The notes beneath the pieces are model-generated. The model did no database searches and was not told the DNA's origin. It was given only the letters and a program-made list of their open reading frames with translations. Source: Deltaproteobacteria bacterium (GTDB taxonomy: Bacteria; Desulfobacterota; Binatia; DP-6). Taken from it: a stretch of 35,093 nucleotides of DNA. Of this stretch, positions 159 through 18,994 are shown piece after piece (position 1 is the stretch's first letter; each line of letters opens with the position of its first letter). The stretch is from positions 1 to 35,093 of the forward strand of contig VBKF01000178.1 of assembly GCA_005888095.1 (NCBI GenBank). The letters are read 5' to 3'. A program made the position numbers and the translations under genes.

Positions 159-429
159 CTAGGAGGCCGACCCAAGACTTCGTCTTGGGTCGCAAAGCGA
201 GAATGTGCGCCGCGTGAGCACGCGACCGTCATGCTGGGGCCGGCGAAGCCGGCGCGGCAAAACGAGCCGGACACGTCAACGACCCGAAGCCCGCAGGCCA
301 AGACTGGGGAAGCGCGTGTCGGTTTGCCGCGCTGGCTTCGCCAGCCGCGGCACGACGGCGGCGCGTGATACCGACGCCACATGCTCGCGTCCGTTTCGCG
401 ACCCAAGAAGTCTTGGGTCGCGCTCCTAG
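159..429. repeat. Long inverted-repeat intergenic element, copy 1
   Basis: The ends are inverted repeats: CTAGGAGGCCGACCCAAGA at 159-177 and its near complement at 411-429 (2 mismatches in 19). Each end carries its own hairpin with an 11-bp stem (168-178/182-192 and 398-408/411-421). A second hairpin pair lies inside (about 239-258 and 326-351, core CTGGCTTCGCCAG), also in inverted orientation. The right half, read as reverse complement, closely matches the left half of the copy at 16963. No open frame looks coding. The right tip supplies the TAG stop of the minus-strand gene at 426. It resembles a foldback, REP/BIME-like or MITE-like unit, and could act as a terminator. Confidence 0.8.
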
Positions 430-2321: not shown

Positions 2322-3221
2322 GTGAACGCCGCCGTCAGCCTGATGGGGAAGGTCCTCCCGGCCACGGTGCACATCCGGGCCGAGATCCCCGACGTGCATC
2401 CGTCGTCGCGCATCCTCGGCACCGAGCGGATGGGCACCGGCACGATCATCGATCCGGACGGTCTCGTCCTCACCGTGAACTACGTCGTCCTCGGCGCGCC
2501 GCACGTGCGCGTCACGTTGCTCGACAAGCGCGCCTACGTCGCCGAGGTCGTGCATCACGACTTCGCTTCCGGGCTCGCGGTCGTCCGGCTGCCGGAGCGC
2601 GGGCTGCCTGCGCTGCCGCTCCGCCGTCTCGACGGCCTCACCCTGGGCGAGGACACGTTCATCGTCGCGAGCGTCGGCGAGGGCGCGGGGCGCGTCTCCA
2701 ACGGTGCGATCAGCTACATCGGACCGTTCGACGCCAACTGGGAGTACGTGCTCGACCGCGCGGTCATGACCACGGCCATGAACCCCGGCCTCGGAGGCGG
2801 TCCGCTGCTCGACGTCCTCGGACAGGTGATCGGCGTCGTGTCGCTCAACCTGAACGAGATCGGACGGTTTTCGCTCGTCGTGCCCGCCGAGTACTACCTC
2901 GACGCCAGCGACCGCTTCCTCACGCCCGGCCGGCCCGCCGGAGGGCCAGGCCGCGCCTGGCTCGGCATCTTCTCGTACGCGATGAAGGAGCACGTGGTGA
3001 TCGCGGGGCTCCTGCCGGGCGGCCCCGGGGAGCGAGCGGGGCTCAAGGCGGGGGACGTCATCCTCGCGGTCGATGGCGACGAGGTGCGCGACCGCCGTAC
3101 CTTCTACCACCTGCTCTGGCGCCGGCGCCCCGGCGACGAGGTCACGCTGCGGGTCTTTCGCGGCCGGCAGGTGCAGACCGTCCGGGTGGCGTCCGGGGAC
3201 GTCGAGGAGTTCTTCGCGTAG
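2322..3221 (+). CDS. HtrA-like pseudoprotease with C-terminal PDZ domain
   Basis: 299 residues, GTG start. Residues about 5-195 align by motif with the trypsin-like domain of HtrA/DegP, and 205-295 form a PDZ domain (LPGGPGERAGLKAGDVILAV). All three catalytic positions are changed. The His of TNNHVV is Tyr54 (LTVNYVV), the Asp of SDLA/SDIA is Gly84 (FASGLAVV), and the Ser of GNSGGPL is Gly158 (PGLGGGPL). The surrounding fold motifs are kept, including MGTGTIIDPDGLVLT, so the gene is not simply decaying. No signal peptide or membrane segment is visible, so a cytoplasmic binding or scaffolding role is likely. It lies 45 bp after the thioesterase and 19 bp before the decarboxylase. Confidence 0.85.
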   Translation: MNAAVSLMGKVLPATVHIRAEIPDVHPSSRILGTERMGTGTIIDPDGLVLTVNYVVLGAPHVRVTLLDKRAYVAEVVHHDFASGLAVVRLPERGLPALPLRRLDGLTLGEDTFIVASVGEGAGRVSNGAISYIGPFDANWEYVLDRAVMTTAMNPGLGGGPLLDVLGQVIGVVSLNLNEIGRFSLVVPAEYYLDASDRFLTPGRPAGGPGRAWLGIFSYAMKEHVVIAGLLPGGPGERAGLKAGDVILAVDGDEVRDRRTFYHLLWRRRPGDEVTLRVFRGRQVQTVRVASGDVEEFFA

Positions 3222-15339: not shown

Positions 15340-15482
15340 CGAGGTCTCCGCGCGACCCCTAGGAACTCGACTCGAGGTGAATCTCCGCGCGCGCCGCGCG
15401 TGCGGCCGAGCGCAGCGAGCGGGAAGTGAGGACCCGGCGGGCTGCGCCCGACGGGGCGAGGGGCAGGGAGCCCCTCGCTGAT
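15340..15482. terminator. Convergent intergenic region with terminator-like hairpin
   Basis: GCGAGGGGC (15456-15464), a 5-nt loop and GCCCCTCGC (15470-15478) form a perfect 9-bp stem, followed on the plus strand by TGATTTAG. Further GC-rich partial palindromes lie at 15388-15455. It separates pyrF from the convergent amidase gene and probably terminates both. No ORF here looks real. Confidence 0.6.
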
Positions 15483-16295
15483 TTAGACCGGCAGCCGCCG
15501 GTGTGCGAGGCTCGGCAGCTCCCGGCGCACGCGTGCCAGGTAGGTACGGTCCACCTCGGCGGTCACCACCGCTTCGCCTTCCCCGGCCCGCGCGAGGACC
15601 CGTCCCCATGGATCGACGATCAGCGAGTCGCCGTGGTCGGCGAACCCGTGCGGACTCGCGCCCGCCTGGTCGGGAGCGATCACGTAGCACTGGTTCTCGA
15701 TGGCCCGCGCGCGGCAGAGGACCTCCCAGTGCAGGGCGCCGGTGAAGAACGTGAAAGCCGACGGCACGAGCAGGATCTCGGCGCCGCGCGCGGCGAGCTG
15801 GCGGTAGAGCTCGGGGAAGCGCAGGTCGTAGCAGATCGACAGGCCGAGGGTGCCGAGCGCGGTGGCGACGGTGACGAGGTCGCCCCCTGGCGCCCGCGTG
15901 TCCGACTCGCGCACCGAGACGCGGCCCGGCAGGTCGACGTCGAAGAGGTGCAGCTTGCGATAGCGCGCGAGGAGCCGGCCGGCCGGATCGAAGAGGCAGC
16001 TCGTGTTGTACGCGCGAGGCTCGCCCGGTACGGCTTCCAGGAACGAGCCCGCGCAGAGGTGGACGCGGCACTCGCGCGCGACCGCGGCCATCACCTCGCT
16101 GGTTGGCCCGGGCACGGGCTCCGTGTGCGCCGCCTCGCCGGTCCGCGGGCCGCGCCAGGCGAAGACCTCGGGCAGCACGACCAGCTGCGCGCCGCGCGCC
16201 GCGGCCTCGCGAACGAGTGCCGACGCCCGCGTCACGTTCGCTTCGCGGTCGGGTCCGGACGCCATCTGCACGGCGGCCGCGACGAAGCGCTCCAT
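15483..16295 (-). CDS. Nitrilase-superfamily amidase (Nit1/omega-amidase-like)
   Basis: 270 residues. The Glu-Lys-Cys triad is intact: Glu43 (VVLPEVFAW), Lys114 (RYRKLHLFDV) and Cys155 (LSICYDLRFPELYRQL). FTGALHWEVLCRARAIENQCY and the strand DSLIVDPWGRVLA complete the alpha-beta-beta-alpha fold. The DLRFPELYR context and length fit the Nit1/Nit2 branch, where characterised members hydrolyse deaminated glutathione or 2-oxoacid omega-amides, a metabolite-repair role. Cytoplasmic. It is transcribed divergently from the PhaR-type regulator gene from a good promoter candidate. The precise substrate is an inference from the branch only. Confidence 0.88.
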   Translation of the reverse strand: MERFVAAAVQMASGPDREANVTRASALVREAAARGAQLVVLPEVFAWRGPRTGEAAHTEPVPGPTSEVMAAVARECRVHLCAGSFLEAVPGEPRAYNTSCLFDPAGRLLARYRKLHLFDVDLPGRVSVRESDTRAPGGDLVTVATALGTLGLSICYDLRFPELYRQLAARGAEILLVPSAFTFFTGALHWEVLCRARAIENQCYVIAPDQAGASPHGFADHGDSLIVDPWGRVLARAGEGEAVVTAEVDRTYLARVRRELPSLAHRRLPV

Positions 16296-16388: not shown

Positions 16389-16946
16389 ATGCGGCTCGTG
16401 AAGCGGTACGGAAATCGGAAGCTCTACGATACGAGCGAGAGCCGTTACGTCACGCTCGAGGAGATCGGGCGCTGGGTGAAGGCGGGCGAGGAAGTGAAGA
16501 TCCTCGAGAACGACAGCGGCGACGATCTCACCGCGGTCACGTTCGCGCAGATCATTCTCGAGGAAGAACGGCGAAAGAGCGGTCTCCTCTCCCTGCCGGT
16601 CCTGCGCGACATCATCCGCCACGGCGAGGCGGCGCTCCAGAACCTCGCCGCCACCGTCGACCGTGGGGTGGAGCTGGTTCGTTCCGCGCCCGAGCGTGCC
16701 GGGCGGCGCGTCCAGGAGCTGACCCAGATTTCCGATCGTCTCGGCGCGCTGCAGCGACTCGTCGACGAGGGCTTCCGGCGCTCGGTCGAGCGGGTGACGA
16801 CGTTGCCGGCGGTCCAGCAGGAGATGCGCCGCATCGAGCGGAGCCTGAAGGCGCTCGAGACGCGCATCACCCGGCTCCGCATGCGGGGCGACGGCGAGCC
16901 ACCCGCGGAACGGCCGCCCGGCGAGGACCGCGGCTCCCGAAGCTGA
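16389..16946 (+). CDS. phaR: PhaR-type polyhydroxyalkanoate synthesis regulator
   Basis: 185 residues. RLVKRYGNRKLYDTSESRYV at 2-21 is the near-invariant start of the PHA/PHB accumulation regulator DNA-binding domain, continuing through LEEIGRWVKAGEEVKILEN and TAVTFAQIILEEERRK. The C-terminal half is helical (about 90-170), with coiled-coil potential in SVERVTTLPAVQQEMRRIER. In studied bacteria PhaR binds DNA and PHA granules and represses phasin and PHA synthesis genes. No PHA synthase or phasin gene lies in this window, so targets are elsewhere. A weak AGGA precedes the ATG. The gene is followed by the second inverted-repeat element. Confidence 0.88.
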   Translation: MRLVKRYGNRKLYDTSESRYVTLEEIGRWVKAGEEVKILENDSGDDLTAVTFAQIILEEERRKSGLLSLPVLRDIIRHGEAALQNLAATVDRGVELVRSAPERAGRRVQELTQISDRLGALQRLVDEGFRRSVERVTTLPAVQQEMRRIERSLKALETRITRLRMRGDGEPPAERPPGEDRGSRS

Positions 16947-16962: not shown

Positions 16963-17272
16963 CTAGGAGCGCGACCCAAGACTTCTTGGGTCGCGGATAC
17001 AGACGCGAGCGTGTGGCGCTCACGTCACGCGCCACCGCCGTGCCGCGGCTGGCGAAGCCAGCGCGGCGGAACGGACACGCGCCGTTCGAAAGGCCTCGCG
17101 ACTCTCATGTGATCCGTTTGGCGATTGGGCCTGTCCGCGGCGGCTGCGAAACCGGGCGTGTCCGTCTGCCGCGCTGGCTTCGCCAGCCGCGGCAGGAGAG
17201 TCGGGCGTGATCCCGACGGAACACTCTCGCATCCGGGTTCGCGACCCAAGATGTCTTGGGTCGCGCTCCTAG
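16963..17272. repeat. Long inverted-repeat intergenic element, copy 2
   Basis: The ends are a perfect 19-bp inverted repeat, CTAGGAGCGCGACCCAAGA at 16963-16981 and its complement at 17254-17272. Each end holds an 11-bp hairpin (16971-16994 and 17241-17264). A perfect 26-bp inverted pair lies inside at 17042-17067 and 17168-17193, each itself a hairpin around GCTGGC...GCCAGC. Smaller matched segments such as ACGGACACG and CGTGTCCGT continue the symmetry, so each arm is about 120 bp with a centre of about 60 bp. The element fills nearly the whole gap between convergent phaR and the stress-protein gene and supplies that gene's TAG. No transposase is present; the reading frames inside are symmetry artefacts. 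Confidence 0.85.
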
Positions 17273-18108
17273 CGGACCAGGAACACCGGCGCCTGGCTGT
17301 TGCGCAGCACGTACTCGGTCGTGCTGCCGAGGACCATCTCGATTATGCGCGAGTGGCCGTACGCGCCGATGAACAGGAGGTCGTGGCCGCCCTCGCGCAG
17401 CGTCTCGGTGATGCGCTGGTGGGGAAGGCCGACCACCGTCTCGCAGCGGAATTCGAGCCCGTAGGGCTGCAGGTAGCGCCGGGCCTCGTCGAGGACCTTG
17501 GTGTCGCCTCCCGCTCCGTCGCGCACGACGTGGATCACGGTGAGCGGGAGCCCGAGCGCGCTGGTCACCTCGGCGGCCGCGTGCATCGCGGCGCTGGCAC
17601 GCTGGGAGCCGTCGTAGGCGAGCAGCGGCCGGCGGATGTCGCCGAACCGCATCGGCGAGACGAAGACGGGCTTCGGGGACTTGCGTGCGACGGACTCGGT
17701 CGTGCCGCCGAGCATGCCGGTCGAGAACTGCTCGTTCAGGCCGCGGTGCCCGATGACGACGAGGTCCGCGGTGCGGGCGGCGTCGCAGATCTCGTTGGCG
17801 ATGATCCCCATGGGCAGCGTCGTGTCGCAGGGGACGTTGCGCTCGCGGCAGCGCTCGGCGAAGGCGTCGAGCAGCACGCGGCCGCGCTCCTGGAGCGCCT
17901 CGCGCATCTTGGAGGAGAAGTCGAGGTACGGCTCGAACCCGAGCGAGCCCGACACGTCGTGGAAGAACGAGCCCTCGATCGAGACGATGTCGATCACGTG
18001 CAGCCCCGTGACCGTCGCGCGCAAGCGCTCCGCCAGCCAGAGGGCGTACTGGAGAGCGGCGTTGGCGTGCTCCGACCCGTCCAGCGCGACCAGGATGTTC
18101 TTGATCAT
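17269..18108 (-). CDS. Tandem-domain universal stress protein (UspA family)
   Basis: 279 residues from ATG 18108. Two Usp domains are fused: 1-150, starting MIKNILVALDGSEHANAALQ, and 155-279, starting RRPLLAYDGSQRASAAM. The second keeps the full ATP-binding pattern G-2x-G-9x-G-S (FIGAYGHSRIIEMVLGSTT). The first has GHRGLNEQFSTGMLGGTT, close to the same pattern. Tandem Usp proteins bind ATP and help in starvation, redox or energy stress; the partner is unknown. A longer open frame upstream is a shadow of the divergent genes. The stop codon TAG lies in the terminal repeat of the element at 16963-17272. Confidence 0.92.
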   Translation of the reverse strand: MIKNILVALDGSEHANAALQYALWLAERLRATVTGLHVIDIVSIEGSFFHDVSGSLGFEPYLDFSSKMREALQERGRVLLDAFAERCRERNVPCDTTLPMGIIANEICDAARTADLVVIGHRGLNEQFSTGMLGGTTESVARKSPKPVFVSPMRFGDIRRPLLAYDGSQRASAAMHAAAEVTSALGLPLTVIHVVRDGAGGDTKVLDEARRYLQPYGLEFRCETVVGLPHQRITETLREGGHDLLFIGAYGHSRIIEMVLGSTTEYVLRNSQAPVFLVR

Positions 18109-18182
18109 GGGGCCCGCCTGCGCGGCATGTACCACCCGCCTTCCCGGCCGCGCAAGCCGCGGGGCAGCCGCGGGGCGGCGCT

Positions 18183-18210
18183 TTGCAAAGGCGGAGGCGT
18201 CGGTTAGAGA
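18183..18210 (+). promoter_or_regulatory. Candidate leaderless promoter before the small protein and fur
   Basis: TTGCAA (18183-18188), 16-bp spacer, TAGAGA (18205-18210). The ATG at 18217 lies 6 bp beyond the -10, so a leader would be almost absent. Confidence 0.4.
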
Positions 18211-18216
18211 GGCTCC

Positions 18217-18501
18217 ATGAGCCGCCGCGACGAGGCCCTCTGCGAGGAGCTGAAGGAGCTTGCCCGCCGCCTCGGCGTCCAGGTCCGGGAGGAGGTGCTC
18301 CTCCGCGAGGTCGGCTACCACGTGCGCAGCGGCGGGTGCCGGCTCAACGGCGAGGACGTCATCTTCCTCGACCGCCACCTCCCTCCGGGCGACCGCGTCC
18401 AGGTCCTGGTCGACCAGCTCGCGGGGCGCGACCTCGAGACCCACTACCTGACGCCCGCGCTCCGCCGGCTGCTCGAGCGCCGGAGCGGCGGCGCGGGCTA
18501 G
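18217..18501 (+). CDS. Small conserved-looking protein of unknown function upstream of fur
   Basis: 94 residues. The N-terminal helix is DEALCEELKELARRLGVQVR, followed by EEVLLREVGYHVRSGGCRLNGEDVIFLDR and a C-terminal helix with ALRRLLERR. The alternation suggests an alpha-beta fold with two Cys and a His (YHVRSGGC) that could bind metal, but I recognise no named family. It lies 10 bp before fur on the same strand and is probably cotranscribed with it, which hints at a metal- or iron-linked role. The reading frame has normal codon bias for the region and an ATG close to a promoter candidate. Confidence 0.7.
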   Translation: MSRRDEALCEELKELARRLGVQVREEVLLREVGYHVRSGGCRLNGEDVIFLDRHLPPGDRVQVLVDQLAGRDLETHYLTPALRRLLERRSGGAG

Positions 18502-18511
18502 CCGACCCCCC

Positions 18512-18994
18512 ATGTCCGTGCGCGCCCGCATGCGGCGGTTCGAGCAGGCGCTGCGCGAGCGCGGGCTCAAGTCGACGGCGCAGCGCGACGACATCGCCCG
18601 CGTCTTCTTCGGCGCCGAGGGCCACCTCTCCGTCGAGGAGCTCTACGCCGCCGTCAGGCGCGTGAACCCGCGCGTCGGGTACGCGACCGTGTACCGCACC
18701 CTCAAGCTGCTCAAGGAGTGCAGCCTGGCCGCCGAGCGCCACTTCGACGACGGGCAGGCGCGTTACGAGCCGGTGGAGGACGACCAGCAGCACCACGACC
18801 ACGTCATCTGCGAGCGCTGCGGCAAGATCGTGGAGTTCGCCAGCGAGGAGCTCGAGCGCCTGCAGGAGCGCATCGGGCGCTTCCTCGGCTTCGTGGTCGG
18901 GCGCCACCGGATGGAGCTCTACGGCATCTGCGCGGAGTGCCGGGAAGGCCGCCGGCGCCACCCGCGCAGCGAGCGCGGCATCCACCGCCTCTGA
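18512..18994 (+). CDS. fur: Fur-family ferric uptake regulator
   Basis: 160 residues. The N-terminal winged helix covers about 8-85 (LRERGLKSTAQRDDIARVFF, GYATVYRTLKLLKECSLAAE, where YATVYRTL is the recognition helix). The C-terminal dimerisation and metal domain holds HHDH (94-97), CERC (Cys100/Cys103), HRMEL (His132) and CAEC (Cys140/Cys143). The two CxxC pairs form the structural zinc site. The neighbouring iron genes and a Fur-box-like palindrome 49 bp downstream support iron sensing over zinc (Zur) or peroxide (PerR), though sequence alone does not exclude those. It probably represses the FTR1 operon and may read into it. Confidence 0.92.
   Translation: MSVRARMRRFEQALRERGLKSTAQRDDIARVFFGAEGHLSVEELYAAVRRVNPRVGYATVYRTLKLLKECSLAAERHFDDGQARYEPVEDDQQHHDHVICERCGKIVEFASEELERLQERIGRFLGFVVGRHRMELYGICAECREGRRRHPRSERGIHRL

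Follow-up and report, generated by a model that had tools for sequence, protein, structure and literature searches.

The window is the whole stretch of DNA analysed here, 35,093 nucleotides long, and corresponds to contig C178 of the host genome (G000; 5.46 Mb, 271 contigs). Palindromes at 159–429 and 16963–17272 had been described in the initial annotation, and both are present at these positions, with lengths of 271 bp and 310 bp. They are designated here as copy 1 and copy 2 of family A. A copy of a second repeat, family B, lies between them. The features are as follows.

159–429, no strand: copy 1 of the short subtype, 271 bp with both CTAGs counted; six G000 copies, itself among them, are 96–100% identical to it
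159–162, no strand: left CTAG of copy 1, a copy of the target
168–192, plus strand: left terminal hairpin of copy 1, CGACCCAAGAC-TTC-GTCTTGGGTCG
239–253, plus strand: core of the left inner hairpin of copy 1, GCCGGC/GCCGGC variant
326–351, minus strand: right inner hairpin of copy 1, 26 nt
399–420, minus strand: right terminal hairpin of copy 1
426–429, no strand: right CTAG of copy 1; read on the minus strand, its TAG terminates the minus-strand ORF 426–1037 in frame
15359–15486: family B copy, 93% identical to the query copy; its right end supplies the stop of a minus-strand gene
16963–17272, no strand: copy 2, long subtype, 310 bp including both CTAGs
16963–16966, no strand: left CTAG of copy 2; the TGA of the plus-strand ORF 16389–16946 is 16 nt upstream
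16972–16993, plus strand: left terminal hairpin of copy 2, CGACCCAAGA-CT-TCTTGGGTCG
17042–17067, plus strand: left inner hairpin of copy 2, 26 nt
17168–17193, minus strand: right inner hairpin of copy 2, 26 nt
17242–17263, minus strand: right terminal hairpin of copy 2
17269–17272, no strand: right CTAG of copy 2; read on the minus strand, its TAG terminates the minus-strand ORF 17269–18594 in frame

The perfect 19-bp ends attributed to copy 2 are exact, and the perfect 26-bp inner pair corresponds to the 26-nt inner hairpin, which is the same on both arms. The arms of copy 2 are 108 nt each and 80% complementary, with a spacing of 94 nt. In copy 1, the 23-nt ends are 91% complementary and the 45-nt inner arms 82%. 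The folding energy relative to dinucleotide shuffles has a z-score of -10.25 for positions 159–432 (0 of 200 shuffles as good) and -14.49 for copy 2 (0 of 100). Another GC-rich hairpin repeat, at 1–158, abuts copy 1 on the left. A sequence resembling this repeat adjoins a single-arm remnant at another locus (L037), after about position 3200, as judged by eye.

The whole-genome search proposed in the initial annotation reveals 28 copies in G000, six with a length near 270 bp and 22 near 309 bp, two of the latter being truncated at contig ends. The two palindromes are thus neither the only copies nor a local duplication. Two hairpin-only and two single-arm remnants, sorted by hand, are present beside the 28 copies. 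With copy 1 as the query, 113 stretches of G000 match, both orientations counted. The alignment of the G000 copies shows sharp boundaries and high identity, and the uncut copies span 268–311 bp, including one of 302 bp. The ends read GAGnnCGACCCAAGA, where the head CTAGGAGC is followed by a hairpin. CTAG is seen at both ends in 22 of 26 uncut copies. When up to 3 mismatches are allowed, the end motif has 66 matches in G000 versus 4 for the reversed control.

The distribution of family A was analysed in seven genomes of the same bacterial family, G000–G006, among which G001 is a same-genus relative of G000, and in more distant genomes of the class. A DNA search of 58 genomes, 51 of them outside the family, with copy 2 as the query matches 19 genomes. 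The matches are strong in G001 and G002, clear in G004, G005, and G006, and weak in G003. The matches outside the family (12 of the 51 class genomes) have E-values of only 8.7e-5 to 0.01 and are taken as noise. A covariance model of one arm, used with stricter filters and at most 40 matches scored per genome, finds matches in six of 98 class genomes. All six belong to the seven-genome family (not G003), and 0 of the 91 class genomes outside it match. The exact terminal-hairpin pattern occurs 59, 41, 95, 0, 1, 63, and 2 times in G000 to G006, respectively, and its reversed control has no match in these genomes. Contig VAYC01000340.1 (L158), titled Actinobacteria AC_48, also carries the end pattern. 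Its sample label is the same as that of the Deltaproteobacteria isolate DP_26, and it is possibly misbinned.

From the outside in, each arm begins with CTAG and five bases, most often GAGCG, followed by a 10–11-pair terminal hairpin, about 50 variable bases, an 11-pair inner hairpin, and a subtype-specific center, the other arm being its mirror. The terminal stem is CGACCC[A/G]AGA ... TCT[T/C]GGGTCG. In G002, where complete copies are near 340 bp, CCCGAGA/TCTCGGG is seen in 11 of 12 aligned loci. The matched stem change noted earlier, CTGG/CCAG versus CCGG/CCGG, is real and recurrent in the family. In 42 arms chosen by the hairpin pattern (set A1), all 882 stem cells pair, with 36 double and 0 one-sided changes; this 100% pairing is partly due to the selection. 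Among arms found by and fitted to the covariance model, 99.5% of 1038 cells pair in set A2 (12 double and 2 one-sided changes) and 99.1% of 2104 cells in set A3 (141 double and 8 one-sided changes). Because A1 was selected by pattern and A2 and A3 were fitted to the model, the double changes are stronger evidence than the pairing rates. A few of the listed hairpins in G005 have one imperfect pair. The symmetric stem change fits recognition at the DNA level at least as well as recognition of RNA.

The initial annotation raised the possibility of a non-autonomous mobile unit. This is supported by the many near-identical copies, by presence and absence between species, and by empty sites with one CTAG. 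The joined flanks of 12 G000 copies were searched against G001 and G002 (set 1), and those of 12 G001 or G002 copies against G000, G001, and G002 (set 2). Matches spanning the joint number nine at seven of 12 sites in set 1 and nine at eight of 12 sites in set 2. Thirteen of these 18 matches were viewed base by base, the remaining five being L216, L109, and L110 in G001 and L132 and L134 in G002. Ungapped empty sites with one CTAG are seen for C106 and C150 in G001 and for L110 in G000, and one with CTAA for L128 in G002. The ungapped empty site of C150 in G002 reads GTAG, which counts against a YTAR target. Since orthologous empty sites hold one CTAG (three), CTAA (one), or GTAG (one), the element duplicates a CTAG-type target, and this is clean at a few sites only. 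At a palindromic CTAG, a 2-bp duplication of TA and a 4-bp duplication of CTAG are indistinguishable. The G000 site of L133 is unclean, with one CTAG versus two in tandem in the joined flanks. That of L137 is gapped around a CTAA. The empty site of C70 contains no CTAG in G001 or G002, and those of C159:10658, C210, and C221 contain diverged spacers. The remaining searched sites match on one side only, or other DNA separates the sides.

One copy (C92) splits the 3' remnant of a RAYT-like gene. When its flanks are joined with a single CTAG, the reading frame stays open across the joint, and its alignment with relatives there is ungapped, with 25 of 39 residues identical. At G000:C90:63557-64129, a long and a short copy are side by side, with one CTAG common to both. 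Family A has several features of a MITE: it is short and multi-copy (28 copies), has terminal inverted repeats (the exact 19-bp ends and the 108-nt arms of copy 2), and duplicates its target (three CTAG and one CTAA clean sites and the frame continuity at C92, other sites being unclean). The genomes are fragmented (271, 510, and 630 contigs), and an assembly artefact, or a set of ordinary immobile terminators, would be conceivable for repeats in such assemblies. The copies are, however, found in unrelated contexts in several genomes, and the orthologous sites lacking the element contradict this explanation, which is highly improbable.

The genes flanking the element were called with a codon model, which was applied also to the relatives; its training set consisted of 102 ORFs from G000 that show the expected GC pattern. 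In total, 190 element ends in 110 stretches were scored, from the G000 copies and part of the relatives' copies, after the removal of 3 overlapping matches out of 193. The neighbor runs toward the element at 145 ends and away at 12; it is not confidently coding at 30 and too short at 3. Thus, the direction is toward the element at 145 of the 157 ends with a confidently coding neighbor. By genome, the ratios of toward to away are 37/4 in G000, 15/1 in G001, 43/5 in G002, 46/2 in G005, 2/0 in G004, and 2/0 in G006. At 125 of the 145 toward-facing ends, the stop of the neighbor falls at -16 to +3 nt relative to the terminal hairpin. At 74 of the 120 ends with intact CTAG, the stop is exactly at -8, which is the TAG of CTAG.

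At least one neighbor stops in CTAG in 19 of the 22 G000 copies with both CTAGs, versus 22 of 68 other CTAGs (Fisher p 1.2e-5). Both neighbors do so in 5 of the 22 copies, versus 1 of 68 other CTAGs in the same stretches (Fisher p 0.003). In a second CTAG background with family B masked, 20 of 66 are at stops, 6 inside coding sequences, and 40 elsewhere. Based on these counts, a lack of CTAG inside genes is by itself insufficient to account for the bias, though undercalled genes could inflate the last class. Convergent gaps were what the initial annotation expected of a terminator-like or REP-like role, and they are found, as the 145 toward-facing ends show. Because the target itself is a stop codon, a terminator role and target choice cannot be told apart by this placement. 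Target choice, selection, or a combination of the two may underlie the bias toward gene ends.

Taken together, both palindromes are probably (roughly 0.8) copies of a MITE-like, non-autonomous transposable element with a YTAR target that serves as a stop codon. An enzyme supplied in trans would insert the element into a CTAG-type (YTAR) tetranucleotide and duplicate the site. YTAR holds TAG or TAA on either strand, and the target could be a single gene's stop or the point at which the stops of two convergent genes overlap. Because the target is a stop codon and is duplicated, each gene would retain a stop after insertion, and the element could sit at gene ends with little harm. The terminal hairpin begins 5 bp inside CTAG and would be placed just behind the stop codon of the neighbor on that side. 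Later, deletion between the near-identical terminal hairpins, or decay, would reduce the element to solo hairpins.

Solo hairpins are seen in several genomes. C94:55691 is a 40-bp CTAG-hairpin-CTAG sequence; with the same flanks, G001:C223 contains the 309-bp element. This remnant would be explained by deletion between the terminal hairpins. As judged by eye, the junction of copy 2 is occupied by the full copy in G000. In G001 it contains a decayed copy that keeps the right terminal and both inner hairpins, and in G002 one solo, older hairpin. Twenty further hairpins (18 in G005 and 2 in G001) were scored as 14 solo hairpins and 6 arms, where some of the solo hairpins may be diverged arms. On the outer sides of these 20 hairpins (34 in total), the adjacent gene runs toward the hairpin in 23 cases, its stop being near in 21 of them, and away in 2 cases; 9 sides are not coding.

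The persistence of the hairpins bears on another explanation, in which the host keeps them between convergent genes as a bidirectional terminator or 3'-end stabilizer. This is compatible with mobility. The hairpins are directly behind stop codons, their stems covary, and the copy 2 junction holds some form of the hairpin in all three genomes. At 41 of the 53 ends that lack CTAG and face a coding gene, the stop is still no more than 16 nt away from the hairpin. However, a simple scan of copy 2 finds 0 stem-loops with a T-tract, covariation may also arise by copying of a few master elements, and the gene-end position largely follows from the target. Judged from the sequences, retention by the host is a tentative possibility, and any 3'-end role of the hairpins is putative. 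The initial annotation also considered a structured RNA source. Nothing points to a known structured RNA, because a search of the window against Rfam gives no family at the gathering threshold.

Family B is about 129 bp long. It has one end motif in common with family A and is otherwise unlike it. A family B query, which includes 37 bp of flank, matches G000 32 times, G001 3 times, G002 23 times, and G003 0 times; its 1 match in G005 covers the flank only. Among 26 G000 copies, a gene runs toward the right end in 24, and in 23 it stops at that end. At the left end, the gene runs toward it in 12, of which 9 have the stop near, and away in 4, and the flank is not coding in 10. The right-end tetranucleotide, read by eye in the 26 copies, is CTAG in 14, CTAA in 3, TTAG in 2, TTAA in 3, and other in 4. 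Based on both flanks, family A in one genome corresponds to family B in another at three places: G002 L216 and G000:C91, G001 L137 and G002:C344, and G000:C90 and G002:C530. Based on one flank, G002 L109 and G000:C206 are also the same place.

A DDE enzyme with a YTAR preference, IS5-like, is favored as the candidate mover of family A. The CTAG and CTAA empty sites correspond to the YTAR target of IS5-group MITEs, with the one GTAG site against it. DDE_Tnp_1 (PF01609), the transposase expected in the host of an IS5-group MITE, has 0 matches in G000. PF01609 matches are present in G001, G002, G003, and G006. The end motif of the element is absent from all six DDE_Tnp_1 loci in the relatives, at which four proteins are named IS1380, IS4, IS701, and IS1182, and no IS5/IS4-type parent is found. 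By eye, the ends of the IS701 (L194, G006), IS1380 (L193, G002), and IS4 (L192, G003) family elements seem to be beside CTAG or TTAG, and these ends differ from those of the element. An IS630-type parent was rejected because DDE_3 (PF13358) has 0 matches in G000. A parental IS with the same ends would appear as a distant pair of ends; none is seen in the G000 assembly, and the assemblies may lack such an IS.

The main rival to a DDE enzyme is a Y1 enzyme. Under a mechanism like that of REPINs or IS200, CTAG would be the target plus the right-end tetranucleotide, which would also look like a 4-bp duplication. The arms would then be REP-like units that a RAYT-type Y1 (HUH) enzyme moves in single-stranded form. 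The terminal hairpins near the ends and the covarying stems with few one-sided changes fit recognition of folded DNA, and G000 has seven Y1_Tnp matches, six of them above the cut-off. The head CTAGGAGC with its hairpin resembles REPs such as GTAGGAGC with its hairpin, as far as these are described in PMC2817692. However, none of the eight stretches covered around the seven Y1 genes carries the end motif, and the two Y1 proteins compared with REP_Tyr_transpos resemble it weakly, at 40.7 and 35.5 bits, far under the 80-bit cut-off. The arms exceed 100 bp, contain two hairpins, and show full inverted symmetry, in contrast to short REPs, and family B, with one end motif in common, has YTAR at the other end in 22 of 26 copies (by eye). 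A RAYT partner was rejected, as DNA similarity among the Y1 loci extends little past the gene and no element is in the surroundings covered. Movement by a Y1 enzyme is rather unlikely. As judged by eye, three RAYT-like paralogues (L074, L075, and L076) have in common a promoter-like upstream stretch like TTGACACATGATAGGTAGACTGCTATTAT.

As a MITE-like element, family A is ordinary in kind. What is unusual is that it is placed so tightly at stop codons, that its hairpins persist, and that two families occupy one niche. It might be speculated, with some reserve, that there is a class of bacterial transposable elements targeting the palindromic double stop (YTAR). Such elements would spare two convergent genes and place a hairpin behind each stop, thereby acting as bidirectional modules for 3' ends that spread by themselves. 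The class would include at least two families with distinct sequences, A and B, in the same niche and at the same junctions in different species. If so, a four-base target renders a transposon nearly harmless, being a stop codon on both strands that is duplicated. It would be a testable case of how mobile repeats reach gene ends, an open question for REP-like repeats. The natural pairs of insertions and empty sites would also allow one to ask whether the hairpins alter transcript ends between convergent genes.

The literature covered, which leaves most subscription papers outside, yielded no account of repeats that target stop codons. Several known systems are similar in part. SPRITE of Streptococcus pneumoniae can be likened by its description, as a repeat with a terminator-like structure; unlike the element, it is described as rho-independent terminator-like (PMC10969869). 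PATEs of Haloquadratum have near-terminal palindromes and a terminal-only version that arises via repeat-mediated deletion. In contrast to the element, they are described as lacking inverted terminal repeats and as related to IS605-type elements (PMC3119063).

REP, BIME, and REPIN sequences with RAYTs are also inverted hairpin units, often between convergent genes, with a similar head (PMC2817692, PMC1525189, in the parts available). Family A likewise contains an inverted pair of hairpin units. Unlike them, it has CTAG in place of the GTAG or GTGG head, long two-hairpin arms, and site duplication. No cognate rayt is beside the element copies, and none flanked by the repeats is found in G000.

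The target resembles that of IS5 and IS711. According to the available parts of the reports, IS5 duplicates YTAR, with CTAG, the commonest, in 15 of 24 listed sites (PMC5493358, PMC10359306), and IS711 also targets YTAR, with a reported preference for palindromic repeats (PMC2266754). In contrast to the element, these are autonomous ISs, and G000 is without a DDE_Tnp_1 transposase. MITEPsy1 of Pseudomonas syringae is 100 nt long with 18-nt ends, duplicates CTAG or YTAA, and has ISPsy2 as its suggested parent (PMC3189936). Its printed ends differ from those of the element, and its description, as far as available, contains no link to stop codons. Like family A, MITEPsy1 is short and non-autonomous, with inverted ends and a CTAG-type duplication.
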